A stretch of DNA of 64,000 bases from Hahella sp. CCB-MM4 (lineage in GTDB: Bacteria > Pseudomonadota > Gammaproteobacteria > Pseudomonadales > Oleiphilaceae), in assembly GCF_002260525.1 (NCBI RefSeq), contig NZ_MRYI01000008.1:1-64000 (forward strand). Direction: 5' to 3'. The stretch's first letter is position 1. Each line of letters starts with the position of its first letter. Under the pieces are notes generated by a model. It was not told the DNA's origin and did not search any database. It saw nothing but the letters and a program-made list of their open reading frames with translations. Both the position numbers and the translations under genes were made by a program. Of this stretch, positions 41,579 through 56,611 are shown piece by piece.

Positions 41579-44002
41579 TCAGGAAGGTTTATCTGAAGCT
41601 ATTAGCCACTCTTTCAGTTCTTTTCTTAACAATTGGACAGCCTGCTTTCTACCCGTAAGCGAAAACCAGGACGCCAGCGCTTGTAATTCAACGGATTCCT
41701 GTTTGAGCGCCTTATCGCGCAGATATTTCAAGGCGGGATAATCTGAAACCCCTGGCAGTCTTGTCAGCAGATCTTCAATGTTTTCAAACGGGCGGGCTCC
41801 CTCTGCAAATAGTGCCAGCAGTGCTTTTTCTCCATCATATAGTCTTTGCCTTGGGGACCACTGGGAATTGCGCTTTGAACGGGATGGTAATTTTGAACGG
41901 GATGGTAATTTTGAACGGGAAGATAATAAAGCCTGTTCCAATATTTCAGAGGTTTGGCGCGGGTATTTCTGAAAATGAAGATCGTAATGGCTACGTCTTT
42001 GAAACCTGATATTGGCCGTACGGAGTATGTGCTTACCCTCTGGACTCATTGGGCACAGCACCATCGCGGCATAGGTGCCGCTGACGTGGTCCCGTTTTGA
42101 ACCCATGCGTACCAAGTGATAACCGTTCTTCAGCCAGAACCGCACGACGTCAGGTTCACCGGCAAAGCTGGCGCCTATCAATGAAACCTGTGGTTTCAGG
42201 TGCTGCTTTAGTTTGCCCAATAACCAGGAACCAATGCCTTTATGTTGTAGTAAGGGATGAACGGCGATACGGATTACCCTGGCCACAGGTGTTCCCAAGC
42301 CTTCCCGGATACACAGCTGTTGAGCCAGTGATTGTTGCAGAAGGTGACCTCTGGGCCGTCTTTCACCCTGCCAGATCGCATCGATCATCGTGGGGTCAGT
42401 AAAAGGCGATTCCATGGAAATCAGCGCCGCTGCGACCACTTCCTCTCTTTCTCCCTCGCCCTTTCCCTCTCTCAGGGTTACGGAGAATGTTCTGACCCCT
42501 GGAGCATCGAGGATTGTCCTGAGGTCGTCAGGCGTTGTGCGATAGTGGGCGATGGTCAGAAGTCGCATAAGTTTGCCTAACAAATGCTGATCGCCACACA
42601 GCGTTTCCGCCGGGTGAAGTGACATCTTTAGCCGACGTAGGGAAAAAGCATTTAACGCCGCTTCATCGAATGATTTCTGATACACCGGCTGATTATCGAG
42701 AATGAAGCTTTTCTCGATAAAGTTTTCCAATGGGTCTTTGGGTTGCCATCTGACCGGGTGCTTCAGCGTAATCGTTTTCCAGCGGGGGAACAGAGATGAC
42801 AATACAGGGAAAAACTTTAGCGCGAACCCTTGCCCGGTACCTTCGTAACCGTGCGTGGTTGTCGCAAATATCAGTCGGGGGAAGGTATTCGCCATAGCCT
42901 TCAGGAGGCTGGTGGAAATGGCGGCGGCTTCGTCAACGATGACCAGCGTGGGCAGTTCTTTGGGACTTAGCAGCTGTCCCTTCTGCAACAAGTCATCCGG
43001 CGCGTAGAAATGTACCCTTGGATCGGAACTCTCCGCGGAGTTGTCGGCAAGAAAACGATAGAAGCTGTGCAGGGTGGCTTTCGAAGGGGCCGTTACCCAG
43101 ATCTGGCCGGCAAATTTCTCCAGCCATTGGTTTACCGCAAGACCTAACCCTGACGACTTTCCCCGCCCCCTGCCTGCAGTGACGACCAAGGCATTCCTGC
43201 GACCGGGAGACATTTTCAGGACCCATTGGATGAGTTTCTGCTGGTCCCCGGTAGCGGTAAAACGTGGGGGAGCATTTGAGGAGGGCAGAGTGCTACGTTC
43301 CGGGAGATTTGCCTGTATTGACACTTTTACCGGATGATTGCCTGATACCTGGATTGAACGCCGTATCTCCAGTCGTGAATTGTCCTGTAGCAAAGACAGA
43401 TTGAATACTGCCCAGGACTTTGATTGAGAGATATGCCTGGAAAGATAGTGAAGGAAGTGGCCTTTGATGTCCTGTTGACTTTGAGGGTAGGCAAGAAGCC
43501 GGTGATATTCCGGATCAGCGAACGTGGGCCAGTCCTTCAGTCTTGGGCCAACCAGAATGAAAGCGCCTCCTGCTGTCAGGGTGCCGCTTAATGCAGTAAA
43601 TGCATCTGGATGCAGACCGGAAAACATGTCGAAGATGACACAGTCAAATTCTTGTCCGAGAACGGAGCTGTATTTGCCGGCAGTGAGATGAACCACAGAC
43701 CTGGAAAAGCCGGTGCTGCTCGAATCGGACTCGTAGTTAATCGAGGAAACCCAAAGTATCCTGGAATAAACTTTCTGCCGCACGACCCACTTCAGCATGC
43801 TATGTGAGGCATGATGGAGTTCCGTGTGTGATTCTGGATGCCGCTCCGTATGGGTGTGTGCCGAGAGAGCACAAGAGGGTGCGCAGACTTCGACTAAAAT
43901 CGGTTGCCGGTGGCCCGCCAGTCGATGGGCTTTTTTTTGTGTCCAGAACCAGCGGGCGGCTTTGGGGGAAAGTATTGGGCCGAAAGCTTTCTGCGATGAC
44001 AT
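41579..44002 (-). CDS. tmcA: tRNA(Met) cytidine acetyltransferase, 807 aa
   Basis: A Walker A-like motif TAGRGRGKSSGLG and a VDEAAAI Walker B identify the helicase part; a GNAT part follows with VIRIAVHPLLQHKGIGSWLL, which binds acetyl-CoA. The enzyme makes N4-acetylcytidine at C34 of the elongator tRNA(Met). It is longer than the E. coli protein (671 aa). A tandem in-frame repeat (SKLPSR) lies at about residues 690-708, before the C-terminal helical region. The start is the ATG at 44002, which shares one base with the stop of the upstream gene (TGATG). Confidence 0.92.
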   Translation of the reverse strand: MSSQKAFGPILSPKAARWFWTQKKAHRLAGHRQPILVEVCAPSCALSAHTHTERHPESHTELHHASHSMLKWVVRQKVYSRILWVSSINYESDSSSTGFSRSVVHLTAGKYSSVLGQEFDCVIFDMFSGLHPDAFTALSGTLTAGGAFILVGPRLKDWPTFADPEYHRLLAYPQSQQDIKGHFLHYLSRHISQSKSWAVFNLSLLQDNSRLEIRRSIQVSGNHPVKVSIQANLPERSTLPSSNAPPRFTATGDQQKLIQWVLKMSPGRRNALVVTAGRGRGKSSGLGLAVNQWLEKFAGQIWVTAPSKATLHSFYRFLADNSAESSDPRVHFYAPDDLLQKGQLLSPKELPTLVIVDEAAAISTSLLKAMANTFPRLIFATTTHGYEGTGQGFALKFFPVLSSLFPRWKTITLKHPVRWQPKDPLENFIEKSFILDNQPVYQKSFDEAALNAFSLRRLKMSLHPAETLCGDQHLLGKLMRLLTIAHYRTTPDDLRTILDAPGVRTFSVTLREGKGEGEREEVVAAALISMESPFTDPTMIDAIWQGERRPRGHLLQQSLAQQLCIREGLGTPVARVIRIAVHPLLQHKGIGSWLLGKLKQHLKPQVSLIGASFAGEPDVVRFWLKNGYHLVRMGSKRDHVSGTYAAMVLCPMSPEGKHILRTANIRFQRRSHYDLHFQKYPRQTSEILEQALLSSRSKLPSRSKLPSRSKRNSQWSPRQRLYDGEKALLALFAEGARPFENIEDLLTRLPGVSDYPALKYLRDKALKQESVELQALASWFSLTGRKQAVQLLRKELKEWLIASDKPS
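41877..41930. repeat. In-frame 18-bp tandem repeat in tmcA
   Basis: Units gaacgggatggtaatttt at 41877-41894 and 41895-41912 are identical. A third at 41913-41930 is degenerate. The encoded peptide is a repeated SRSKLP in a linker of the C-terminal region. The identical copies suggest recent expansion. Confidence 0.85.
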
Positions 44003-44259
44003 CAAACGGTTTTGGGCCGCCTGTCCCCTTGCATATACTTGGCGACGAAAACGCAGTGGCCATATTTTTCAAAGGACCAGGCCATGGTTTGATTAAGGGC
44101 ATTCATAACCTTTTGATATTCACCAAAGACCTGGGTGCTCATGCGATTAGGCTGAACCTCTATATCGGCGAAGGAAGTCAATTTGGCGATAACATCTTTA
44201 ACCGGTGGTTTAAAATCGGCATCAAACGGATAAAAACTGAGTTCAACAGATAACTCCAT
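44002..44259 (-). CDS. MTH1187-family thiamine-binding-like protein, 85 aa
   Basis: The 85-residue protein has the ferredoxin-like layout of the MTH1187/YkoF group: ELSVELSFYPFDADF, then FADIEVQPNRMSTQVFGEYQ, then SFEKYGHCVFVAKYMQGD. Members bind thiamine or related ligands. GGGAGG precedes the ATG at 44259. It overlaps the tmcA start. Confidence 0.8.
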   Translation of the reverse strand: MELSVELSFYPFDADFKPPVKDVIAKLTSFADIEVQPNRMSTQVFGEYQKVMNALNQTMAWSFEKYGHCVFVAKYMQGDRRPKTV

Positions 44260-44452
44260 GATGACCTCCCGTCATATTTCGGATGAATTGCTGAAATGGT
44301 ATCAATCAGACCGGCCTCTGTCATGAAGATGTTTCAAGTCAGAGCTTCGCTTCCCGGATCATTCGCCTCTATAATATTGGTCCATAAAAACCCGCCGATG
44401 ATCAGTGCATGCGGCCCAGGGTTCCGAATAATATGTTGGGGGGAAACTGCAA

Positions 44453-45079
44453 GTGTTCGATATCAGACGATTGGCTGAATGCAGCCAGGAAATTATCAGT
44501 GCAGGTCAGTTTTTATACGGCAAAGGCTGGTCCCCGGCCACCAGTAGCAATTATTCATCCCGAATAGACTGGGAACACGTGGCCATCACCGTTTCCGGCA
44601 AACACAAAGGCGAACTGACTCCCAGGGACATTATGGTCGTGGATCTAAAGGGAAGGCCTGTTGCCAGTGAGGCGAAGCCTTCTGCTGAGACATTGCTGCA
44701 TACCGTGATCTACCAGGAAAAGCCTGAAGTCGGTGCAGTACTGCATACCCATTCTGTATGTGCGACGGTCGTGTCACGTTACTATGCGGATCGCAACAGT
44801 CTTGAGCTGCAGGATTATGAATTGCAGAAAGCGTTTGCCGGGATTACCAGCCATGAAGGGATGGTGAACATCCCCATATACGAGAATACACAGGATATCG
44901 GGCAGCTTTCCGAAGATACCAGGAAGCTCTTCCTGGAGCATCCGGAATGTCCGGGATACCTGATCCGAGGGCATGGTGTTTACACCTGGGGGCAAACTAT
45001 GCAGGAATGCCTGCGCCATATAGAAGCGATGGAATTCTTGTTAAGCTGTGAATTAGAAATGCTGAGGATTAAACGATGA
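44453..45079 (+). CDS. mtnB: Methylthioribulose-1-phosphate dehydratase, 208 aa
   Basis: Class II aldolase-fold enzyme with LHTHSVCATVV (H98 and H100) and IRGHGVYTWG (H174) as zinc ligands. It dehydrates methylthioribulose-1-phosphate in methionine salvage. The start is GTG at 44453 after a GGGGGGAAAC ribosome-site-like sequence. mtnD starts within its last codons (4-bp overlap). Confidence 0.9.
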   Translation: MFDIRRLAECSQEIISAGQFLYGKGWSPATSSNYSSRIDWEHVAITVSGKHKGELTPRDIMVVDLKGRPVASEAKPSAETLLHTVIYQEKPEVGAVLHTHSVCATVVSRYYADRNSLELQDYELQKAFAGITSHEGMVNIPIYENTQDIGQLSEDTRKLFLEHPECPGYLIRGHGVYTWGQTMQECLRHIEAMEFLLSCELEMLRIKR

Positions 45080-45636
45080 GTAGTTTGAGAATTTATAACG
45101 AGACTGATTTTGGTGAGCCGGTATCGTATACAGAAGACGGTGCGGAAATCAGTCGGCAACTCAATGAGATGGGGGTTCGCTTTGAACGCTGGTCAACTCG
45201 TGATTTGGGAGCAAGTGCGTCTCCGGATGATATTCTGACAGCATATGCCGATGAAGTAGAGCGTTTGAAAAAGGAAAACGGTTTTACCACGGCGGATGTC
45301 ATCAGTTTGAACAGCAATCATCCCCAAAAGGATGAGTTGCGTAAGAAATTCCTGGACGAACATCGCCACTCGGAAGATGAAGTCCGCTTTTTTGTCAGAG
45401 GGCAGGGGCTGTTTTATCTGCATCTGGAAGACAAAGTCTATGTTGTGCAATGTTGCCAGGACGACCTGATCAGTGTGCCCAATGGCACCAAGCACTGGTT
45501 TGATATGGGACCGACTCCGGAATTCACCTGTGTTCGTCTGTTTACCAACCCTGAAGGTTGGGTAGCCCAGTTTACTGGTGATGAAATCGCCTCCCATGGG
45601 CCTCGATTCGAGCAGTTGTTACCTGAGGCCTGCTGA
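45076..45636 (+). CDS. mtnD: Acireductone dioxygenase, 186 aa
   Basis: Cupin enzyme with the metal ligands in EHRHSEDEVRFFV (His, His and Glu) and a later H in GTKHWFDMG. It splits acireductone to formate and the keto acid precursor of methionine. Its ATG overlaps mtnB by 4 bp. mtnC follows 89 bp later. Confidence 0.92.
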   Translation: MSSLRIYNETDFGEPVSYTEDGAEISRQLNEMGVRFERWSTRDLGASASPDDILTAYADEVERLKKENGFTTADVISLNSNHPQKDELRKKFLDEHRHSEDEVRFFVRGQGLFYLHLEDKVYVVQCCQDDLISVPNGTKHWFDMGPTPEFTCVRLFTNPEGWVAQFTGDEIASHGPRFEQLLPEAC

Positions 45637-45725
45637 GTTCGCCCAAATAGACCTGAAATCTTCGTAGTAGAAGACAGATTTAATTGAAGTAAAAGACACA
45701 CAGATATAGGAAAACAAGAGACAGC

Positions 45726-46421
45726 ATGACCATCAAAGCTATTTTGACCGATATCGAAGGAACCACCAGCAGTATCAGCTTTGTTCACGAAGTGCTGTTT
45801 CCTTATGCCGCCAGCCGTCTGGAGGCATTTGTCAGGGAGCACCTGAGCGATGATGAGGTGCAGGCTCAGTTGACTGCAGTGTCCGTTGAATCAGGTATCG
45901 ACGTGAGAGATGTGGATGCTCTATGTCGACAGTTGCTTGACTGGATCAGGGAAGACAAGAAAATTACTCCCTTGAAAGCCCTGCAGGGGATGATCTGGAA
46001 GCATGGCTATGCTCAAGGGGACTTTACCGGTCATGTTTATCAAGATGCGGCTGACAACCTGAAATCCTGGCATGAGCAAGGGTTAAAACTGTATGTGTAT
46101 TCCTCCGGCTCTGTGGCTGCCCAGAAGCTGATATTCGGATACTCGGATTTTGGTGATCTGACCCCGCTCTTTTCAGACTACTTTGACACCAAAATAGGCG
46201 GTAAAAAGGAAGCTGCATCTTATGCCGGGATTGTTGAGAAAATTGGATTACCCGCAGAGGAAATCCTGTTTCTTTCCGATGTGCCGGATGAGCTGGATGC
46301 CGCTGCCGCTTCTGGACTGAAGGTTTGTCATCTGGTCCGTGTCGATGAAGTGACCAAACAGGATCGTTATCCCGTGGCGGCAACATTTGATGAGGTGAGA
46401 GCGACCTTTGCCCTGGTCTGA
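45726..46421 (+). CDS. mtnC: Enolase-phosphatase E1, 231 aa
   Basis: HAD-type enzyme beginning ILTDIEGTTSSISFV, with the SSGSVAAQKLIFG motif II and a later FLSDVPDELDAAAASGL. It both enolises and dephosphorylates in methionine salvage. The three genes mtnB-mtnD-mtnC form an operon; mtnA and mtnK/P are not in the window. The stop codon is inside a 20-bp perfect tandem duplication. Confidence 0.93.
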   Translation: MTIKAILTDIEGTTSSISFVHEVLFPYAASRLEAFVREHLSDDEVQAQLTAVSVESGIDVRDVDALCRQLLDWIREDKKITPLKALQGMIWKHGYAQGDFTGHVYQDAADNLKSWHEQGLKLYVYSSGSVAAQKLIFGYSDFGDLTPLFSDYFDTKIGGKKEAASYAGIVEKIGLPAEEILFLSDVPDELDAAAASGLKVCHLVRVDEVTKQDRYPVAATFDEVRATFALV

Positions 46422-46452
46422 GGACTATTTGGCTGGTCTGAGGACTATTTGG
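46413..46452. repeat. Perfect 20-bp tandem duplication across the mtnC stop codon
   Basis: ctggtctgaggactatttgg occurs at 46413-46432 and again at 46433-46452, without a mismatch. The TGA stop of mtnC (46419-46421) lies in the first copy, and a second in-frame-like TGA appears in the copy. Absence of mismatches suggests a young event. Confidence 0.9.
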
Positions 46453-46541
46453 ATTGTATTTAGCTTCGCCTGAGAATGATATGACGACCACGGGTCTTTG
46501 TACGGTTATATTCATTGTGTGGTTGAATAAATCTCGACGGG

Positions 46542-46570
46542 AAGACCTCGATTAGCCGAGGTCTTTTCTC
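46542..46570 (+). terminator. Terminator after the mtn operon
   Basis: aagacctcg (46542-46550) and cgaggtctt (46557-46565) form a 9-bp stem with a 6-bp loop, followed by ttctc. It ends the mtnBDC operon. Confidence 0.7.
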
Positions 46571-46605
46571 ATCCAAGGCCTGAAAACAAGCGTATTATCC
46601 TGATC

Positions 46606-47730
46606 ATGCGACGCATTGAGGACTGTGTGCTTATTCAAGAGCAATCTCTCTCAATCAGCCTGAAAGAGCGAATGAATCCCCAGGGCATGGTTGTCACGTT
46701 GATGATCCTGGTGATGCTGCTATCCACCACAGGCTGTGCGAAGCAAGACACCATGCAAGGCCGTATCCAGGACTATCAGGAACGTCTGGAGCGGGTGTTG
46801 GATACGGAGTTTCCAGAACTTGATGTCGGCGATCCGGCTATTCGATATTCTCTTCCGAAAAATCTTCGCCGCAGTACATCTGCCTTTACCATTAACTGGC
46901 TCGACTTTTTCTCCATCATGCATTGTGACCTCAACCGGCTGGTTGGGCAGCGAAACAGTTCTCTTGGTAAGGTGATGAGTGCCAGCCAGAGATGGCGTTA
47001 TGAACAGGAGTTTCTGGTTGTGGGGCAGCAATGCCTTGAAATGCTCCAGAAGGAGGAGCGTAAACCGGATCTGCAGAAACAGTTAGCTGAAGTGTTGAGG
47101 GTGAAATCTCTCGAAATGGTGGATATTGCCTGGAATGCCACATGGGCTGGACCCGAGTTTCAACAGCTCATGAGTTTTCATGATGGTCCTCTGCCAACCG
47201 ACTTTCGATATGCCGACTGGTCAGAGTTAACCGCCGCACTGGGATTATTAGTGGAGGGCTCTGAGCATCCGACTCGGATGGAAAATAGTTCGGAACCTGA
47301 AGAGATGAATCTGAAGCTGGTGTCCTATCCCGTTGTTGGCCGTTTGCTATTGTCCGTCCGGCAGGCGACCTTGCAAATCGAGAATATTAATCAAGGGCTG
47401 CGCCAGGTAATGTCGCGCCGTCCGGTTTGCTTTAACCAGACTCCCAATCCTAAAGCGAGAATACTGAGTAATGTGTTGACCAATATTTTTATTGTCAAAG
47501 TCCAGCCCTATCTAGCGGAGTTGAATAAGGGGATGGAGCAGTGGAGGCCAATGCTGAAGCGTAGCTACAGCGCGCTTGAAGGAAATGAAGATAATGCCTT
47601 TTACCAGGCTTATCTGGCTGATCATACATTGATGCGCTCTTTCAAACAGAGCCTCACTGAACACGGTATCCTATGGACTGAGTTACTTGCACAATGCGGG
47701 CTGAGCCCCGGAAACCCTCCCAGTCCTTGA
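46606..47730 (+). CDS. DUF3080 lipoprotein, 374 aa
   Basis: A hydrophobic segment ends at LLSTTGC, a lipobox, followed by a long helical domain that matches DUF3080 (for example QDYQERLERVLDTEFP and FFSIMHCDLNRLVGQRNSSLG). The family is restricted to gammaproteobacteria and has no known role. The real start may be the ATG at 46672 (MNPQGM), but its leader lacks basic residues, so the longer start is kept. Confidence 0.75.
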   Translation: MRRIEDCVLIQEQSLSISLKERMNPQGMVVTLMILVMLLSTTGCAKQDTMQGRIQDYQERLERVLDTEFPELDVGDPAIRYSLPKNLRRSTSAFTINWLDFFSIMHCDLNRLVGQRNSSLGKVMSASQRWRYEQEFLVVGQQCLEMLQKEERKPDLQKQLAEVLRVKSLEMVDIAWNATWAGPEFQQLMSFHDGPLPTDFRYADWSELTAALGLLVEGSEHPTRMENSSEPEEMNLKLVSYPVVGRLLLSVRQATLQIENINQGLRQVMSRRPVCFNQTPNPKARILSNVLTNIFIVKVQPYLAELNKGMEQWRPMLKRSYSALEGNEDNAFYQAYLADHTLMRSFKQSLTEHGILWTELLAQCGLSPGNPPSP

Positions 47731-47762
47731 GATTTCTAGCCGTTTGGATAGGACTCCTTGGA

Positions 47763-47781
47763 AAATGACAATAGGTCATTT
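47763..47781. promoter_or_regulatory. Inverted repeat upstream of FHA gene
   Basis: aaatgac (47763-47769) and gtcattt (47775-47781) form a perfect inverted repeat of 7 bp with a 5-bp gap, between the DUF3080 gene and the FHA gene. It is a possible operator. Confidence 0.4.
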
Positions 47782-47875
47782 GTCCGCTTGGCAAAGTTGA
47801 TCATTTTTTGATATGGTTCACATCCCTGGCACGGATAGCCAGAAATTTTCATCATACAAACAGGGATGTCATCAT

Positions 47876-48346
47876 ATGGAAGTAACCTTTTCTGTACTTG
47901 GAACCGACTCTGGTTCTGTCTTTAATCTCTCCTATACCTTCGATTACCGCGGTGGTTTGATCGGTCACTCAACCGATTGTGACTGGTGCTTGCCTGTGGG
48001 GCGGAATACTCATCCAAGGCATGCAAAAGTGATATTTTCCGACGGCGAATTCTTGATTGAAGGCTTGGCCGCTGATGGCTTGATTATCTGTCGCAATACA
48101 ATGCCTCTGGCTCAGGGTGGGCGTTATGCCATTCGTCATGGTGACCAATTTCGAATTGGCTCCTATCAGGTACTTGCTCAGTATCACTCAGATATATTTC
48201 TACCTCCCTGGCTAAACAAGGGAGAGGTCATAGATTTAGCGGACAACCACCGGAAAAGAAAAACCTTGCCCGCTGAATTCAAGAGCTCTGATTTTGATAT
48301 GTTGTTAGCCTTGCTGGGTGAGGAAAAACAGGGACGTCACCACTAA
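47876..48346 (+). CDS. FHA-domain protein, 156 aa
   Basis: The ATG at 47876 (MEVTFSVLG) follows an AGGGA site; the frame extends to 47813. The FHA-fold pattern is seen: an RGGLIGHSTDCDWCLP start, NTHPRHAKVIF, and RHGDQFRIGSYQVLA. The usual arginine of the GRS motif is replaced by histidine (GHS), which may alter phospho-threonine binding. C-terminal 50 residues are polar and charged. Such proteins read kinase signals; the kinase-like gene is next. No type VI genes are nearby. Confidence 0.75.
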   Translation: MEVTFSVLGTDSGSVFNLSYTFDYRGGLIGHSTDCDWCLPVGRNTHPRHAKVIFSDGEFLIEGLAADGLIICRNTMPLAQGGRYAIRHGDQFRIGSYQVLAQYHSDIFLPPWLNKGEVIDLADNHRKRKTLPAEFKSSDFDMLLALLGEEKQGRHH

Positions 48347-48398
48347 CGCCTCAACCCTAATCTCTCTAAATTTATCATGGCCATTAAGGAAGGAACCT

Positions 48399-49451
48399 AT
48401 GAATTCCATGGAAAGTAGTGTCGTACGTTTGCAGTCCAACTCCGCCTCGATAGCAAGAGGAAAAGCACTATCTGTCGGCGGAACAGGGAAAGGATTTTCC
48501 GTCGGGCAGATCGTCAATGATCGATATCTTTTGGTAGAAAAATCCTGTTCGTCGGGGGCCTTTGTGGTGTTCAAAGCTCAGGATTTGTGGAGGTTGGCGG
48601 AATTGGGGCAGGAGCATTTTCTTGCATTCAAAACCCTGAAAAACCAGTGGATAGATTGCCGAGAAGCGGTTAATACGTTGCTGTGTGAGGGGGACATGCT
48701 TCATAAGATTCAGCATGAATCCGTGATAAGAAGCTTTATTTCAGGAAACGAGGATGGTATTCCATTTCTGCTGTTGGAGTGGCACGAGGGACGGACACTG
48801 GAAAACATGATGAAGGATTCTCATTATCCGCTAAGTGCCCAGGTAAAGCGGCGGATTATATGGCAGCTTGTGGCTGTCGTCGGTTCTTTGCACCGGCAGG
48901 GAATTGTGCACGGTGATATCCAACCTGCCAATATTGTTATCAGGCCGGATGGAAGGTTATATCTTAATAATTTTGGAGCTGCGTGCCTGGATAATATGGC
49001 GAAGCTTCCTCAACGCCTCTATCGTGCACTTCCTGATTTCGTCATTAAAAATCATGATCCGACCCAAGCCCCAAAGCGAGAGGGTGACTGGTATGCCATT
49101 TTACAGGTGCTTCGATGCCTGTATTTTGGAGGACCCAGGACCAGAATGCGACCGAAGCCGGGACTAACCTTCTTCCAGATCAGGGCATTACGCAAAGCAC
49201 TCTGGAAGCTGGAAAGGAAAAAAATGCCGGATATTTACCTGCTTGATGAGGTGTTTGGGGTATCTCTGGAGCAATTGAGCACTTGTAACCTGAAGGCGCT
49301 GACGACTGACAGTCGTGCTCAGCAAGCAGAATCAGACAGCCCCCTGAAACATGTTGGACTGGTTTTTTCGGGCTTATGTATCGGAGTGCTGAGCAGCCAA
49401 TATGGATACCTTCTGGATTTGATTAAGGAAGGATGGACCATCATCTCATAG
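48399..49451 (+). CDS. Ser/Thr-kinase-like protein with degenerate motifs and a C-terminal membrane segment, 350 aa
   Basis: The ATG at 48399 has GGAAGGAA upstream. The kinase fold is recognisable: VLR-like lysine K78 (LAFKTLK) and the catalytic loop HGDIQPAN (H171-D173-N178), with the Mg-binding DFG replaced by NFG (N191-F-G193). The Gly-rich loop is also weak (SCSSGAFVV). It is thus a likely pseudokinase or a low-activity kinase. The C-terminus has a hydrophobic segment (HVGLVFSGLCIGVL). It follows an FHA gene, as in the PppA/PpkA/Fha type of regulation, but without type VI secretion genes. Confidence 0.75.
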   Translation: MNSMESSVVRLQSNSASIARGKALSVGGTGKGFSVGQIVNDRYLLVEKSCSSGAFVVFKAQDLWRLAELGQEHFLAFKTLKNQWIDCREAVNTLLCEGDMLHKIQHESVIRSFISGNEDGIPFLLLEWHEGRTLENMMKDSHYPLSAQVKRRIIWQLVAVVGSLHRQGIVHGDIQPANIVIRPDGRLYLNNFGAACLDNMAKLPQRLYRALPDFVIKNHDPTQAPKREGDWYAILQVLRCLYFGGPRTRMRPKPGLTFFQIRALRKALWKLERKKMPDIYLLDEVFGVSLEQLSTCNLKALTTDSRAQQAESDSPLKHVGLVFSGLCIGVLSSQYGYLLDLIKEGWTIIS

Positions 49452-49899
49452 GCCCACCTTCCGTCAGTTTTTGGTGAAACAGACCAACCTGCCATAGATG
49501 ATTTATTTTTCTGTGGGTTGGTCTTTTTCATGATGCCGCTACACACTGGACTAGAGCGAATAGCAGACGATTTTGCTGACTCCTGTCGCTATGATCAGGT
49601 TGTATATGACTGGGTATAAAGATATTGACACTCAGTCACCAAGGGCGTACAAAAATTAATCAGTGCGTAGTTGCCAGGCAGTATCAGGTATTTTTGCACG
49701 GAAACGATTGATACTTGCAGATGTGGATCAGCAACAATGCATAAGTTTTTCTGTTCACTCTATAACTCCGCTTGCGTAAATCCTTCCTCTCTGGAATTTC
49801 ACATATTTCCTAACTGGCCGGTGAACGAAAGCGCGAATTCCACGATTCCCTTCTGCAAACACGTCATTGGTCCTGATGATTCAATAAGAGGATTCAGAC
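49452..49899. other. Intergenic region between pseudokinase and muramidase genes
   Basis: These 448 bp contain a terminator-like hairpin (49481-49528) and then sequence without a supported gene. A weak reading frame over 49671-49958 overlaps the muramidase start and has no coding signs. The start-side segment (49840-49899) is the leader of the muramidase gene. Confidence 0.6.
49481..49528 (+). terminator. Terminator after pseudokinase gene
   Basis: agaccaacc (49481-49489) and ggttggtct (49516-49524) form a 9-bp stem with a 26-bp loop, followed by ttttc. It separates the FHA/kinase unit from the muramidase/holin unit. Confidence 0.6.
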
Positions 49900-51258
49900 A
49901 TGATGGGAGCCGTTACTGCCACACATCTGAATGTAAGATCTCAGCCCAATACCAATAGCCGGATATTGGGTGAAATAGCTTCGGGAACTCTGGTAGAGGT
50001 CGTTGGCCAGAAGAGCGGTTGGTTTGAAATTCAGTACCAGGGCAGACCAGCCTTTGTCTATGGCGACTACATACAGCTCGATAATGATATCCCCCGTCAG
50101 ATTGGGGTAGTGACTGCGAGCCTATTGAATGTGAGGAGCCGTCCGGCCGTGAGCGCGGAGGTGATAGGTACCCTGGGGAGTGGAACCGTGGTTCCTGTGG
50201 TATCAAGTCAGTCCGGTTGGCTGGAAATTCCTTTTCATGGAAGTCTCGGTTATTGCTCAGCCTCTTATATTGAACTGCATCGGCAAGGCCAACGAAGACA
50301 AGGGGTGGTGAGCGCAAGTTTGTTGAATGTCAGGTCGAATCCGACCTCCGAAGCTCCTGTTCTCGGCCAGCTAAGAAGGCAGGCGGAAATCACTGTTGAG
50401 TCGACCTTGGGCGCTTGGCACGAGATTTCATTTAATAACAGCCGAGGTTACGTCGCCGCCCAATACATCAAGCTTCTTCCGGAGAAAGAGGTCACACCTT
50501 CCATCCCGATTGCCGCCAATGAACTGGACGAAGCTCTATCGTCTGATGCTGTTACAGCCCCAGTCGGTGGAGATCAACGCTTTAGTCCGGCTAATCAGTT
50601 ACCCGTTTCGGGGTCCGCCGAAGAGCGCAAAGTCGCATCGACCTGGAATAAGTATGGAGGCCTGCTTGCCCAACTCAGTGATACTGAAGGGGTGGATGAA
50701 GCATGCTCTGTAGCTGTTTTGTGCGTCGAAAGTTCGGGTGAGGGCTTCGATCCGGATAATCAAAATCGCATGGTCATCCGATTCGAAAATCATAAGTTTT
50801 GGAAATACTGGGGGAAGACGGACCCTGCTCGTTATCGACAACATTTTACCTATGATGCAAATCAGGTTTGGAAAGGCCACCAGTGGCGCAAATCGCCCGG
50901 TGACCATTGGCAAATCTTTCACGGTATACAGAAGGCCGAGTGGGAGGTCCTGGAGTTTGCCCGTTCGATTGATAACGATGCTGCACTGATGTCAATCAGC
51001 ATGGGGGGCCCCCAGATTATGGGCTTTAACTATGAAGCATTGGGATTTCGTTCGGTGCAGGAGATGTACAACGCATTCTCTGCGGACATGGGAGCTCAGA
51101 TCACCGGCATGTTCGATTTTATGTCAGCGGCAATGATCAGATATCTCCAGGTTCTCAATTTTGTTGGGTTTGCCGGTCTGTATAACGGGAGTGGCCAGAA
51201 GGATATATACGGTCGCCGGATAAAGAACTTCTACGATGCTTTTAAGCGCATTTCCTGA
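49900..51258 (+). CDS. N-acetylmuramidase with three SH3b domains, 452 aa
   Basis: The ATG at 49900 has GAGG eight bases upstream. Three SH3b domains (about 1-63, 68-133, 137-198) share LNVRSxPxxxxxxL and GW/WxEI patterns. After a linker, a muramidase domain (DUF3380 type) starts near residue 250: VAVLCVESSGEGFDPDNQNR contains the catalytic glutamate. It cuts peptidoglycan. No signal peptide is seen, so export may depend on the holin encoded next. The domain order (SH3 in front) is unlike typical phage endolysins, which place binding domains behind. Confidence 0.85.
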   Translation: MMGAVTATHLNVRSQPNTNSRILGEIASGTLVEVVGQKSGWFEIQYQGRPAFVYGDYIQLDNDIPRQIGVVTASLLNVRSRPAVSAEVIGTLGSGTVVPVVSSQSGWLEIPFHGSLGYCSASYIELHRQGQRRQGVVSASLLNVRSNPTSEAPVLGQLRRQAEITVESTLGAWHEISFNNSRGYVAAQYIKLLPEKEVTPSIPIAANELDEALSSDAVTAPVGGDQRFSPANQLPVSGSAEERKVASTWNKYGGLLAQLSDTEGVDEACSVAVLCVESSGEGFDPDNQNRMVIRFENHKFWKYWGKTDPARYRQHFTYDANQVWKGHQWRKSPGDHWQIFHGIQKAEWEVLEFARSIDNDAALMSISMGGPQIMGFNYEALGFRSVQEMYNAFSADMGAQITGMFDFMSAAMIRYLQVLNFVGFAGLYNGSGQKDIYGRRIKNFYDAFKRIS

Positions 51259-51333
51259 TACATGAAAGCCTGAAACTAAAAAGGAAAGCTGCGTGAAGAC
51301 AAGTTGGAATTTTGATTGCCAAGGAGAAAAACA

Positions 51334-51756
51334 ATGAATGTCCTGTCATTTATCAGCAGTATCTTTGAGCCAGCGGTTAGGTTGGTGGATGAGCTGCACA
51401 CCAGCGAAGAAGAAAAGCTGGATATGAGACGTCGGATTCAGCAGATTGAGAATGAGTTTCTCGGTAAGGTGCTGGAATATGAGACCAAACTCATGGATAA
51501 CCAGGCCACAATCATCAAGGCTGAGGCCATGGGACAGTCGTGGCTGCAGCGTAGTTGGCGTCCTATCACCATGTTAACTTTTCTGGTCCTGGTGGTATTT
51601 GATAGCTTCGGGATTCTGGCAACGCCTCTGGCGGATGAAGCCTGGCTGTTATTGCAAATAGGCTTGGGAGGGTATGTTGCCGGCCGGTCAGCGGAAAAGA
51701 TTACCAGCCAGGTGATGGGAGCTCGTGCCAGAAGGGATAACGAAGCCAAAGGTTAG
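51334..51756 (+). CDS. 3TM holin-like membrane protein, 140 aa
   Basis: The ATG at 51334 has AAGGAG seven bases upstream; the frame starts earlier. An amphipathic, charged N-terminal half (EEEKLDMRRRIQQIENEF) is followed by SWRPITMLTFLVLVVFDSFG and a second hydrophobic segment. This layout matches the GTA-type 3TM holins (PF11351). Holins make membrane lesions that let muramidases reach the wall. It lies 75 bp after the muramidase gene. Its stop overlaps the first unit of a tandem array. Confidence 0.8.
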   Translation: MNVLSFISSIFEPAVRLVDELHTSEEEKLDMRRRIQQIENEFLGKVLEYETKLMDNQATIIKAEAMGQSWLQRSWRPITMLTFLVLVVFDSFGILATPLADEAWLLLQIGLGGYVAGRSAEKITSQVMGARARRDNEAKG

Positions 51757-51874
51757 GAAACAGAAGGCTATCAAACAGAAAGCGATAAATCCCAGGAAAA
51801 GCTGACACTATTTATTAACAGGCAAAGCTGGTGCTATCAATCACAGGCAAAGCTAGCGCTATCAATAAAAAGGA
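51750..51874. repeat. About 25-bp degenerate tandem units after the holin stop
   Basis: Five units of about 25 bp begin around 51750, 51775, 51800, 51825 and 51850. The last two share aagctggtgctatcaatcac-like text with the motif ctatcaat. The first includes the holin stop codon (51754-51756), and the last ends in AAAAAGGAC, which is the ribosome site of the next gene. Confidence 0.75.
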
Positions 51875-51880
51875 CATGTT

Positions 51881-52384
51881 TTGGCAATCATACATTTGGT
51901 AGAAGGACCGGTGGGAGCAGGTAAGTCCACTTACGCTTCGCAACTGGGTCAGGAATATCGAGCGCCTGTGCTGAATCTGGATGACTGGATGGTCACCCTA
52001 TTCAGCCCGGATCGCCCAATGGAAAATGCCATTGAATGGTATATCGAGCGTAAAGAACGTTGCATAGAGCAGATTTGGAAAGTCACCTCAGAGATAATCA
52101 GCTCAGGAAACGACGTCATTCTTGAGCTGGGACTGATTCAACAGGCAAGTCGGCAAAAATTTTTCGACAAGGTGGAGTTTGCCCGTTACATGATGAGAAT
52201 TTATGTGCTGGATGCGCCGAGGGAAATTCGGCGGATGCGGGTTCAGCGGCGCAACAGGGAGCAGGGAACCACCTATTCCATGGCGGTTCCAGATCACGTA
52301 TTCGAGATGGCGAGTAATCTGTGGGAGCCCGTTGAACAGCTCGAATGCAACGGTTACGAAGTTAAATACATTTCAACTGTATAA
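51881..52384 (+). CDS. P-loop NTPase / predicted kinase, 167 aa
   Basis: The start is TTG at 51881, preceded by AGGA. Walker A (EGPVGAGKSTYA) and LNLDDWMVTLF indicate a small phosphotransferase-type P-loop protein (AAA_33-like), with a DAPREIRRMRVQRRN lid segment. The substrate is unknown. It may belong functionally to the muramidase/holin unit or be independent. Confidence 0.8.
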   Translation: MAIIHLVEGPVGAGKSTYASQLGQEYRAPVLNLDDWMVTLFSPDRPMENAIEWYIERKERCIEQIWKVTSEIISSGNDVILELGLIQQASRQKFFDKVEFARYMMRIYVLDAPREIRRMRVQRRNREQGTTYSMAVPDHVFEMASNLWEPVEQLECNGYEVKYISTV

Positions 52385-52396
52385 TCGGTTCTGTTT

Positions 52397-53197
52397 TTAG
52401 CGAGCCCGCTTGAGACTGTTCTGGGTGAAGTCATTGTCATCCAGACCTGTCTTGAACTCGATCTTGTCTGTTTTCAACAGTGTCTTTTTACCCGTCTGCA
52501 GATTTTCCATCATACTGTAGTGGGCTCTCCAGTATTTGTTCAGATACTGCTTAAATTCCTTCGCTGTCAGAGTTTTCAGCAAGCTATCTTTGCGGTCATA
52601 AAATTCGACCAGGAATGTGCGGTATTCCTCTTGATCAATCCAGTTAACCTGTTTGCTGTAACCCGAGTTCTCGTCCACCGGATAACTTTCCACGACAAAG
52701 CACTTAATATCTTGATAGGGTTCCGGGCAGGCTTCGTCGCGCAGGTATTTATAGGTGTATTTTTCCACCTCTTGTGAGGAAAGATCTTCAAAAGCAAATT
52801 CACTTCCCATGAATGGGCCTGACTTGTTTTTGGAGGCGATTCTTTTTACGCGCTTCAGTGCCGGAAGGTATAACCACTGGTCATCGTCTTCTGCTTTATG
52901 GGAATAGGTCAGTAGTTTGGTTCCACGAACATCTCTGGGGCTATCAAAGATGGTGAGACTCTTGTCACCGTCCAGCCGGACTTCAAGCCCCCACATACGC
53001 ATATCCCGGACAGTTTCGTCGCCACCTTTGTTGATCAGTATCATCTTGACGTCAGCCTGGCTGTCTTTCCAGCCACGGTCCCGACGGTCGGCTTGTTTGG
53101 CGATTTCCAGGCCACGGTCTTCTGGAGATAATTCCGCCAGGCTGTTCATTGCTAATGCAAACAGGCTGACTCCAAAGACTATTTTAATTAGTTTCAT
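52397..53197 (-). CDS. LolA-like outer-membrane lipoprotein-sorting protein, 266 aa
   Basis: A signal peptide (MKLIKIVFGVSLFALAMNSLA) is followed by an open-barrel fold with RMWGLEVRLDGDKSLTIF and DDQWLYLPALKRVKRIASKNKSGPFMGSEF, which match the PF17131 family of LolA-like proteins. Members work with MMPL/RND-type transporters; none is adjacent. The length is typical. Confidence 0.85.
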   Translation of the reverse strand: MKLIKIVFGVSLFALAMNSLAELSPEDRGLEIAKQADRRDRGWKDSQADVKMILINKGGDETVRDMRMWGLEVRLDGDKSLTIFDSPRDVRGTKLLTYSHKAEDDDQWLYLPALKRVKRIASKNKSGPFMGSEFAFEDLSSQEVEKYTYKYLRDEACPEPYQDIKCFVVESYPVDENSGYSKQVNWIDQEEYRTFLVEFYDRKDSLLKTLTAKEFKQYLNKYWRAHYSMMENLQTGKKTLLKTDKIEFKTGLDDNDFTQNSLKRAR

Positions 53198-53322
53198 TTT
53201 TCCCTCTCTTTCATTGGCGCTTGGTGTCGCCAGATGGCGCAGTATTTTGGGGTTGTTGTTCTTTCTTTTACAAGTGACAGGTTTTCCATCTGGTTATAGA
53301 GATTGAGGCGCTTATTGAACCG

Positions 53323-55107
53323 TTACTCTATGCTTAGCTGAGAAGATGGTGTCACCCTTAATACTTCATCTATTGTGGTTTGGCCATTGGCAACTTTCTG
53401 TGCGCCACTGAGTCTCAGTGTTCTCATACCTTCTTTAATGGCGATTTTCCTGACCCGGTCCAGGTCACAGTTGTCGGAAATGGCCTCTTTGACCATCTCG
53501 GACATCATCAGAATTTCATAAACGCCTGCTCGACCTCTGTAGCCGGTATTGCGGCATTCAAGACAACCATTGGGGATACAGGTGTGGTCGGGCATTGGGG
53601 CTTTCCAGGGGCGAATCAGGCTCTGCCAGTCTTCAGTGCTGATGGTGCTGGTCTGTTTACACTGAGGACACAGTATTCTGACCAATCGTTGAGCCATAAC
53701 GCCCAGGACGGTTGCCTTAACCAGATAACCAGGAACGCCCAACTCCATTAACCGGGTGATGGCTGAAGGAGCGTCATTGGTGTGCAGAGTGGAAAGCACC
53801 AAGTGGCCGGTCAAGGCTGCCTGTATCGCCATTTCTGCGGTTTCCAGATCTCGTATCTCACCGACCATGATGATGTCCGGGTCCTGACGCAACAGAGCTC
53901 GGACCCCAGACGCAAAGTCCACTCCGATATTGCTTTGTACCTGCATCTGATTGAAGGCCGGCTCCACCATTTCTATGGGATCCTCAATGGTGCAGACGTT
54001 TACTTCAGGAGTCGCCAGAGATTTCAAAGTAGAGTAGAGGGTGGTGGTTTTACCCGACCCAGTTGGACCGGTGACGAGAATGATGCCGTTAGGCTGGCGG
54101 GTCATGCTGTTCCAGCGCTTGCTGTCGTCCTGTCCGAACCCCAGATCATTGAAAGATCTTAATAGCACCTCCGGATCGAATACCCGCATGACCAGCTTTT
54201 CGCCGAAGGCTGTCGGCAAAGTGGAAAGACGAAGTTCTATTTCAAGACCGTCCGGATTTTTGGTTTTAATACGGCCATCCTGGGGTTTCCGTTTTTCTGC
54301 CACGTTGATCCGGCTGAGAATCTTCAGGCGGCTGACAACGGCGGTGGAAACCTGGGAGGGAAGTTCGTAAACATTATGTAGAACGCCGTCAATACGAAAC
54401 CGGACCTGACCGATTTCCCGGCGTGGCTCAATATGGATATCGCTGGCCCGCTGATCGAACGCATACTGCAAAAGCCAGTCCACGATATTGATAATATGCT
54501 GGTCATTGGCATCTGGGTTGGCAACGTTACCCAGTTCGAGCAATTGCTCAAAATTTCCGATGCCGGGAGCTGCCGCCTGCCCGCCAATGGCTTTGTCCAC
54601 AGAAGAAGCCAGCCGATAAAATTCCACTGTAAAGCGGGAGATATCCGCCGGATTCGCAACAACCCGGCGAATATCCTTGCGGATCACATGGCGCAGGTTC
54701 TCTTCCCACCCGGTGACAAAAGGTTCCGCACTGGCAATGACAACATGATCGGAGCGAATCTCCACCCCCAGAATACGATGCCGCTGTGCATAGGCAAAAC
54801 TCATCAGGCTGGCAACGCCGCGGGTATCGATTTTCAGAGGGTCAATATGATAGTAGGGTTGGCCGGATTCTTTAGCCAGCCACTCAGTCAATTGTTCAAG
54901 GTCAAATTTCTTACCAGACTTCAGATCTTTAAGTTCTGCTTTAACGATCTGTTCCAGAGGGTGAAGAGCTTTGTCTTCTTTGCTGGTAGGCATGGCGAGA
55001 AACTTGTCTGCCTCGTCCTGGGCTAGACGTCCGATTCTCACCAAGCGGCTTAAAACGTCGAAAGGGGTGAGCCAGTCACGGGTTAATTCTTTTGATACAG
55101 AGTTCAT
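53323..55107 (-). CDS. GspE/PilB-family secretion ATPase, 594 aa
   Basis: The ATG at 55107 (MNSVSKELTRDW) is chosen because the frame upstream does not look like coding sequence; no strong ribosome site is seen. The order is an N-terminal MshEN-like domain, then Walker A GPTGSGKTTTLYS, Walker B (QDPDIIMVGEIRDLETAEMA) and a four-Cys zinc motif CPQC...CLEC. The ATPase powers type II secretion or type IV pili. No pilin, GspF or other T2SS gene is in the window. Confidence 0.88.
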   Translation of the reverse strand: MNSVSKELTRDWLTPFDVLSRLVRIGRLAQDEADKFLAMPTSKEDKALHPLEQIVKAELKDLKSGKKFDLEQLTEWLAKESGQPYYHIDPLKIDTRGVASLMSFAYAQRHRILGVEIRSDHVVIASAEPFVTGWEENLRHVIRKDIRRVVANPADISRFTVEFYRLASSVDKAIGGQAAAPGIGNFEQLLELGNVANPDANDQHIINIVDWLLQYAFDQRASDIHIEPRREIGQVRFRIDGVLHNVYELPSQVSTAVVSRLKILSRINVAEKRKPQDGRIKTKNPDGLEIELRLSTLPTAFGEKLVMRVFDPEVLLRSFNDLGFGQDDSKRWNSMTRQPNGIILVTGPTGSGKTTTLYSTLKSLATPEVNVCTIEDPIEMVEPAFNQMQVQSNIGVDFASGVRALLRQDPDIIMVGEIRDLETAEMAIQAALTGHLVLSTLHTNDAPSAITRLMELGVPGYLVKATVLGVMAQRLVRILCPQCKQTSTISTEDWQSLIRPWKAPMPDHTCIPNGCLECRNTGYRGRAGVYEILMMSEMVKEAISDNCDLDRVRKIAIKEGMRTLRLSGAQKVANGQTTIDEVLRVTPSSQLSIE

Positions 55108-55193
55108 ATGGCGGTAGTGTCCATTCTTCAAGTCGCTTTCGACATTATAGCTTATCGCTTGTCTGCCAGATGGGGGATTAACCTTCTGAAAGA

Positions 55194-55553
55194 TTAGGCG
55201 CAGGCTTTGCGAGCTTTGGCATTCGCTTTGATAAACAGCATGATGAAAATAAATAACCCTGCTGAGAAGATTGCCATGCCAATGTTCAGGGCCGTCGGAG
55301 CCACGGTCATGGAATGGACAACGGCGTCTGTAAAGTACAGACAAAGTACAAAGCATAGCCATATCAGGCCACGGATATTGACCTTGAACACCGCCGGTGC
55401 AAACGCCAGCAGCGGCAATACTCTCACTGCCGTAATCAGTAACCATGAGGCGTCGGTATGCTGGATGCTCTGCCAGGTGCTGGCGATGACCAGGGCCAAC
55501 AGGATTAAGTAGCTGATCTGGTAGGACTGGCGAAACAGTTTAATCGTATGCAA
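55194..55553 (-). CDS. DUF2069 membrane protein, 119 aa
   Basis: Four hydrophobic segments (for example SYLILLALVIASTWQ and GLIWLCFVLCLYFTDAV) match DUF2069, which is common in gammaproteobacteria next to wrbA and arsC. The start is TTG at 55553, with AGG eight bases upstream. That ribosome site and the leader are duplicated by a 21-bp tandem repeat. Confidence 0.8.
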   Translation of the reverse strand: MHTIKLFRQSYQISYLILLALVIASTWQSIQHTDASWLLITAVRVLPLLAFAPAVFKVNIRGLIWLCFVLCLYFTDAVVHSMTVAPTALNIGMAIFSAGLFIFIMLFIKANAKARKACA

Positions 55554-55593
55554 TGTGGTTACCTAAATTGGAAAATGTGGTTACCTAAATTGG
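55552..55593. repeat. 21-bp perfect tandem duplication carrying the DUF2069 ribosome site
   Basis: The same 21-bp unit starting aatgtggttacc occurs at 55552-55572 and 55573-55593. It includes the AGG ribosome-site segment and the TTG start region of the DUF2069 gene, so an extra translation-initiation-like element is present upstream. Confidence 0.85.
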
Positions 55594-55623
55594 AAATAAA
55601 GTCGAAACAGGGGCTATCCGGTT

Positions 55624-56611
<988 letters not shown>

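Follow-up and report, generated by a model that had tools for sequence, protein, structure and literature searches.

The window analyzed here, a 64,000-nucleotide stretch of the genome of Hahella sp. CCB-MM4 (contig NZ_MRYI01000008.1, positions 1 to 64,000), contains a run of five genes that are oriented in the same direction and encode an FHA-domain protein, a protein-kinase-like protein, a muramidase, a holin-like membrane protein and a P-loop protein (Table 1). An earlier note on this DNA had assigned the genes to these families and read them as a single module in which a phospho-reading pair controls wall cutting. All five reading frames were found on the forward strand, and profile searches matched every family that had been claimed (FHA, Pkinase, SH3_3 with the PF11860 muramidase domain, PF11351 holin and AAA_33 P-loop). 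The muramidase and holin genes form a real, conserved bicistron, which we refer to as the cassette, and the grouping of all five genes into one module is not supported. We consider it probable that the locus comprises a phage-derived muramidase-holin pair that belongs to bacteria and lies outside prophages, beside an FHA/pseudokinase unit that is probably unrelated to it and a stray gene.

Table 1. Features of the muramidase-holin locus in the window, with the cassette listed first.
Feature	Position	Strand	Remarks
Muramidase	49900..51258	+	452 aa; three SH3b + PF11860
PF11351/phrog_3427 holin-like membrane protein	51334..51756	+	140 aa
31-base block upstream of muramidase	49663..49693	+	possible control element
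Terminator-type hairpin (U run) separating the kinase and muramidase genes	49475..49535	+	
FHA-domain protein	47876..48346	+	156 aa; neighbour, probably outside cassette
Protein-kinase-like protein	48399..49451	+	350 aa; neighbour, probably outside cassette
Three 24-base direct repeats before P-loop gene	51792..51866	+	spacing 26 and 25
AAA_33 P-loop protein	51881..52384	+	167 aa, TTG start; outside cassette

The muramidase has three SH3_3/SH3b stretches (at about amino acids 5-58, 72-125 and 135-193) followed by a PF11860 muramidase domain (amino acids 268-449; Pfam E-value 1.3e-36). Its residue Glu277, invariant in 16 of 16 aligned sequences, aligns by hand count with residue 101 of the phage endolysin AP3gp15 (structure 5nm7), and the description of AP3gp15 gives this Glu101 as the catalytic residue (PMC5674055). 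No signal peptide was seen by eye, and, likewise by eye, the first SH3b domain starts close to the N-terminus in all 16 aligned sequences. A plasmid search returned a single match, which was confined to the SH3 part. The holin gene begins 75 bases past the muramidase stop codon, and its product matches both PF11351 (E-value 2e-10; 41.7 bits against a curated cut-off of 24.8) and the holin family phrog_3427 (E-value 8e-39). Assignment to a holin family thus agrees with the earlier note, whose "3TM" label can be traced to the Pfam name, since the predicted model has four helices at low confidence (67.2, pTM 0.32). PDB sequence searches with the holin gave nothing useful.

A scan of named genomes with muramidase alignment yielded 26 contigs, 23 of which cover query residue 1 to 449 or beyond. 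They include contigs of Hahella, Aliikangiella, Paraglaciecola, Aestuariibacter and Pseudomaricurvus, together with several metagenome-assembled genomes, and the cassette is patchily distributed among mostly marine bacteria. The muramidase matches in L081, L084 and L085 are partial, those in L084 and L085 being cut by the contig end. In 23 of the 26 contigs the holin gene adjoins the muramidase gene downstream on the same strand, with a gap of -4 to 58 bp in 22 cases and of 150 bp in one, and an unbroken full-length muramidase frame is present in 21 of the 26. A muramidase and a holin-like protein that are conserved as a pair outside a recognisable prophage are thus supported; the earlier note had seen no phage structural or regulatory genes near them in the window. 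Its surroundings vary: by hand count there are at least nine different neighbourhoods, including histidine-use genes, a Na+/H+ antiporter, Mrp-type antiporter genes and others (some named by eye), and families common to several genera near the pair are few and scattered (e.g., ABC ATPases). Among 37 neighbour proteins taken from 12 of the 26 cassette contigs, the Pfam families shown (25 of 66) relate to housekeeping or transport and include no type VI family, and the PHROGs shown (25 of 35) include no terminase, portal or tail family. Within the window, a domain scan of nine neighbours of the run identified eight with housekeeping domains and one T2SSE-type ATPase, and found no phage structural or packaging genes among them. 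The claim that no type VI or phage genes lie nearby holds for these nine genes but has to be qualified for the FHA protein, which is itself nearest to type VI FHA proteins. No Rfam family matched at positions 44000-56000.

We compared the locus with that of a sister species, Hahella ganghwensis DSM 17046 (contig NZ_AQXX01000123.1), which belongs to the same genus as the window. The gene order is the same, with amino acid identities of 46% for the FHA protein, 55% for the kinase, 63 to 64% for the muramidase and 94% for the holin. Because all 34 kb of the sister contig that were compared are collinear with the window, co-location in the two species reflects shared ancestry and is not independent evidence. 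Between them, dN is 0.035 for the holin and 0.034 for AccA, and reaches 0.28 for the muramidase, 0.39 for the kinase and 0.47 for the FHA protein. Identity at fourfold sites is 22/55 for the holin gene and 60/143 for accA; since the fourfold sites of the holin gene are about as diverged as those of its neighbours, its 94% identity reflects selection, and recent exchange was ruled out as its source. The holin is thus strongly constrained in Hahella. Five other genomes of the genus had no muramidase match at 1e-5, at best weak FHA matches in two of the five (E-values 5.6e-4 and 7.9e-4), and partial-length kinase matches that did not exceed 35%.

Both members of the cassette have phage relatives. 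The catalytic domain of the muramidase matches phage endolysins, and a search of phage records gave 501 muramidase matches, none of which covered 80% of the query, and 12 holin matches, the best at 51%. From IMG/VR we kept, with limited flanks, 80 holin relatives (the best of 511, from a pattern list of at least 600) and 80 muramidase relatives (the best of 94); the matches of these 80 muramidase relatives begin at residue 207 or later. A profile search found both families together in one of the 160 viral loci (L239, 7920-9921), where a PF11860-type enzyme and a related holin lie 497 bases apart. None of the viral loci and phage records that were searched showed the layout with three SH3 domains. 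A quick tree of 86 holins (54 viral rows, few columns, viral matches under 60 bits or short left out) placed 21 of 24 cassette rows in one supported set together with two viral rows.

The phage connection of both families could mean that the cassette is what survives of a decaying prophage whose other genes have been lost. Relatives of the holin that are 54-66% alike do occur elsewhere in four genomes of the same genus, and the surroundings of one of them (L048) contain terminase and portal domains; in another (L047), two neighbouring proteins matched SASA and DUF1441. The occurrence of the pair at different places in several genera is nevertheless hard to square with a remnant. The predominance of unbroken muramidase frames, the constraint on the Hahella holin and a three-SH3 layout not seen in the viral sequences searched also speak against it. 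We therefore regard decay from a prophage as unlikely, and favour a phage-derived pair that bacteria have retained.

The FHA and kinase-like proteins point in a different direction. The FHA protein has a Pfam match with an E-value of 1.3e-4 and matches the TagH-type NCBIfam model TIGR03354 with an E-value of 5.3e-17 (62.7 bits, under the cut-off of 120.25; model positions 18-103 of 420). The sister-species protein matches the same model with an E-value of 2e-19, also over the first quarter and under the cut-off. With its 156 amino acids, the window protein corresponds to the FHA part of TagH and has no C-terminal T6SS_FHA domain, and its gene lies outside a type VI cluster. FHA domains usually carry an SxxH motif, at the place of which the window protein reads PRH. 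The FHA fold reported earlier was confirmed; the motif noted as a changed GRS reads GHS in the window and GRS in the sister species. In a sample of the class, 37 of 369 genomes (own included) had FHA matches, and the two best non-own matches (L290 and L291) carry FHA and T6SS_FHA domains beside TssF, TssK and TssM. PDB sequence searches with the FHA protein gave nothing useful.

The kinase-like protein matches Pkinase (Pfam E-value 1.1e-16) and keeps HGDIQPAN, with HGD and N intact, while NFG replaces DFG, as had been noted for the window and as we also found in the sister species. The DFG aspartate marks active Ser/Thr kinases, although some kinases without DFG are still active; with NFG in both species, the protein is probably not a normal kinase. 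The membrane segment described at its C-terminus corresponds to a hydrophobic stretch as judged by eye. Its predicted model had a mean pLDDT of 33.6 (two-row alignment), a first genome-contig scan returned no relative, and its PADLOC matches were set aside as they look like general kinase similarity. Among the loci compared, its best non-Hahella match (132.6 bits, with the next at 81.1) sits in a TssM-PP2C-kinase-Hcp run. The class sample contained the kinase at 1e-22 in three of 369 genomes (own included), the other two at 97.7 and 84.3 bits, the latter on a contig of 3.5 kb where no type VI gene was seen alongside by eye. The FHA domain and small kinase of the window thus resemble type VI TagH and Ser/Thr kinase/PP2C regulators, from which they differ in the short FHA protein, the NFG motif and their setting, with no type VI gene or phosphatase found alongside. 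The window's genome carries type VI genes on other contigs. We think that the FHA/pseudokinase pair forms a transcription unit of its own with a type VI-like origin, and it may be a regulator pair that has left its system.

The alternative in which the FHA protein and pseudokinase sense a phospho-signal and thereby govern the muramidase-holin pair has some observations in its favour. The four genes are adjacent, point in one direction and have open frames in both Hahella species, and regulation at this place is plausible, because the 31-base block upstream of the muramidase gene is kept in both: it is identical save for a 3-base insertion, amid intergenic DNA that has otherwise diverged. This block was not found in 22 other upstream regions, where the best match to its first 15 bases had at least 4 mismatches; a comparison of 16 of its bases with viral contigs gave 51 stretches, which, given the size of that collection, were taken as probable chance matches and left unused. 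In Aliikangiella marina (L061), a weak kinase match (27%, E-value 3e-6) lies 4.3 kb past the cassette, but this 246-amino-acid protein has no accompanying FHA match and is a different kinase, so that it was not counted as the same pair. The terminator-like hairpin described 3' of the kinase gene is present with a U run behind it (-24 kcal/mol, z -5.6, equalled in 0 of 200 shuffles) and separates the two units in the window, whereas its counterpart in the sister species is a weaker fold (z -2.2, equalled by 5 of 200 shuffles) that lacks a U run. A simple terminator scan listed seven sites against 4.5 expected and missed this hairpin because its loop exceeds the length that the scan allows.

Against phospho-control, an FHA gene and a close kinase gene occur near the cassette in only one of the 26 named contigs, that of H. 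ganghwensis (L060), and the collinearity over 34 kb means that their adjacency counts once. Their resemblance to type VI parts, their much higher dN relative to the holin and the hairpin with its U run between the units in the window also speak against it. The earlier note had staked the module on the FHA/kinase and muramidase/holin pairs staying together, and for one half they do not, as the muramidase/holin pair occurs elsewhere without FHA and kinase. Membership of the FHA and kinase genes in a common module is thus not supported, and their control of wall cutting is likewise unsupported and quite improbable overall, although it could apply in Hahella. The locus shows how poorly gene adjacency, whether in a single genome or shared by two sister species, predicts a module, and we prefer the interpretation of an independent muramidase-holin cassette.

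Several observations weigh against this interpretation. Three of the 26 loci have no holin gene: the contig of L062 stops about 140 bases on, and L081 and L084 have downstream sequence yet no holin. In L063 (4693-6055) and L080 (10046-11409) the muramidase is matched in two separate frames, so that these genes look broken or misassembled. Muramidase and holin distances correlate (r = 0.84 over 24 rows, reached in 0 of 5000 permutations), as expected under joint inheritance, but the correlation includes species kinship, and three of its rows are partial or split muramidases. The cassette is rare, with the muramidase found at 1e-40 in two of 398 genomes of a phylum sample (own included), and no neighbour or cargo family recurs widely across genera beside the pair, unlike at the known loci of type 10 secretion. 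The scarcity of FHA and kinase genes near the cassette is somewhat weakened by nine contigs in which the pair has less than 5 kb of flanking sequence on one side or both (L062, L063, L064, L066, L072, L075, L081, L084 and L085). Of the four promoter-like sites that a scan listed in the region, against 6.1 expected, none lay just before the muramidase gene. The constraint on the holin comes from the Hahella pair alone, in which most genes have a saturated or undefined dS. Finally, the cassette holin of L079 falls among viral rows of the tree and those of L075 and L085 are unplaced, and therefore the tree does not establish a single origin.

The nearest described counterpart of the cassette is type 10 secretion, in which a holin and an endolysin release proteins, as with ChiW/ChiX of Serratia and TtsA of Salmonella Typhi (PMC9527704). 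As in type 10 secretion, a holin accompanies a wall hydrolase, here with no signal peptide seen by eye, away from any recognisable phage: the two genes adjoin in 23 of 26 contigs, and no phage structural family was among those shown for the 37 neighbours at 12 loci. The cassette differs in its combination of PF11860 with three SH3b domains, in its PF11351 holin and in the lack of a recurring cargo or third gene, and secretion by it would be a conjecture from this likeness. Phage lysis cassettes with PF11860 endolysins such as AP3gp15 share the catalytic domain, the single Glu and a holin in the gene set, and AP3gp15 bears another wall-binding domain (PMC5674055). A further difference is that the viral loci and phage records searched showed the pairing a single time and the three-SH3 layout not at all. 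The open-access literature searched yielded no description of a PF11860/three-SH3 and PF11351 pair outside phages, and the pair is a new variant among holin/endolysin pairs.

The muramidase would be synthesised in the cytoplasm with no signal for export and could be passed through the inner membrane by the holin-like protein. The three SH3b domains would then hold it on peptidoglycan, where Glu277 is predicted to cut the glycan, presumably also in vivo. No recurring family of linked secreted cargo, such as a chitinase or toxin, was found in the flanks, and the pair has no conserved third gene next to it (no search aimed at spanins was made). For this reason, local or limited wall opening of the type 10-like release kind, or lysis of a few cells, appears likelier than full phage-type lysis, and release or limited lysis may be the job of the pair. 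A bolder and more tentative proposal is that the cassette is a cargo-less, self-contained holin/muramidase device taken from phages and patchily spread in mostly marine Gammaproteobacteria, with the holin as the constrained part (perhaps a regulated channel), and that in Hahella it may also have come under the pseudokinase and FHA protein. In the descriptions consulted, type 10-like release systems go together with cargo, for instance chitinases or toxins. A conserved cargo-less pair in free-living marine bacteria would provide a minimal natural system for asking whether holins serve bacteria in controlled wall opening, release of common goods or self-lysis.

Alternatively, the cassette could serve altruistic self-lysis upon phage infection or damage, as in abortive infection. 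A holin and a muramidase might suffice to kill a cell, and the patchy distribution would fit such a role, the muramidase being found in two and the holin (at 1e-10) in eight of the 398 genomes, own included. Neither protein has a PADLOC match, however, and the flanks contain no family that recurs widely across genera (defence genes as such were not searched for there), so that we find this use doubtful. It is very unlikely that the muramidase is a type VI effector against rivals, with the membrane protein as its immunity or export partner: PMC5361080 does name a PF11860 domain among Vibrio cholerae type VI effectors, and the Hahella genome has type VI genes on other contigs, but the partner belongs to a holin family, no type VI family was found among the neighbour families shown, and VipB is present in only nine of the 26 cassette genomes (some of the other 17 being incomplete assemblies), which suggests that the pair is independent of type VI secretion.

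The P-loop protein matches AAA_33 with an E-value of 3.1e-18. At the corresponding position H. ganghwensis has no such gene, and its holin gene and a LolA-like gene lie about 80 bases apart. The P-loop gene was therefore not counted in the cassette, contrary to its earlier inclusion in the module. The direct repeats that precede it in the window, together with its absence from the sister species, could perhaps represent an insertion scar. H. ganghwensis has three small genes between a DUF3080 gene and the FHA gene (L045:14752-16514) that are not found here in the window, and one of them has a YkuD L,D-transpeptidase domain; according to the type 10 literature, a transpeptidase that makes LD cross-links is required in muramidase-dependent typhoid toxin release (PMC9527704).

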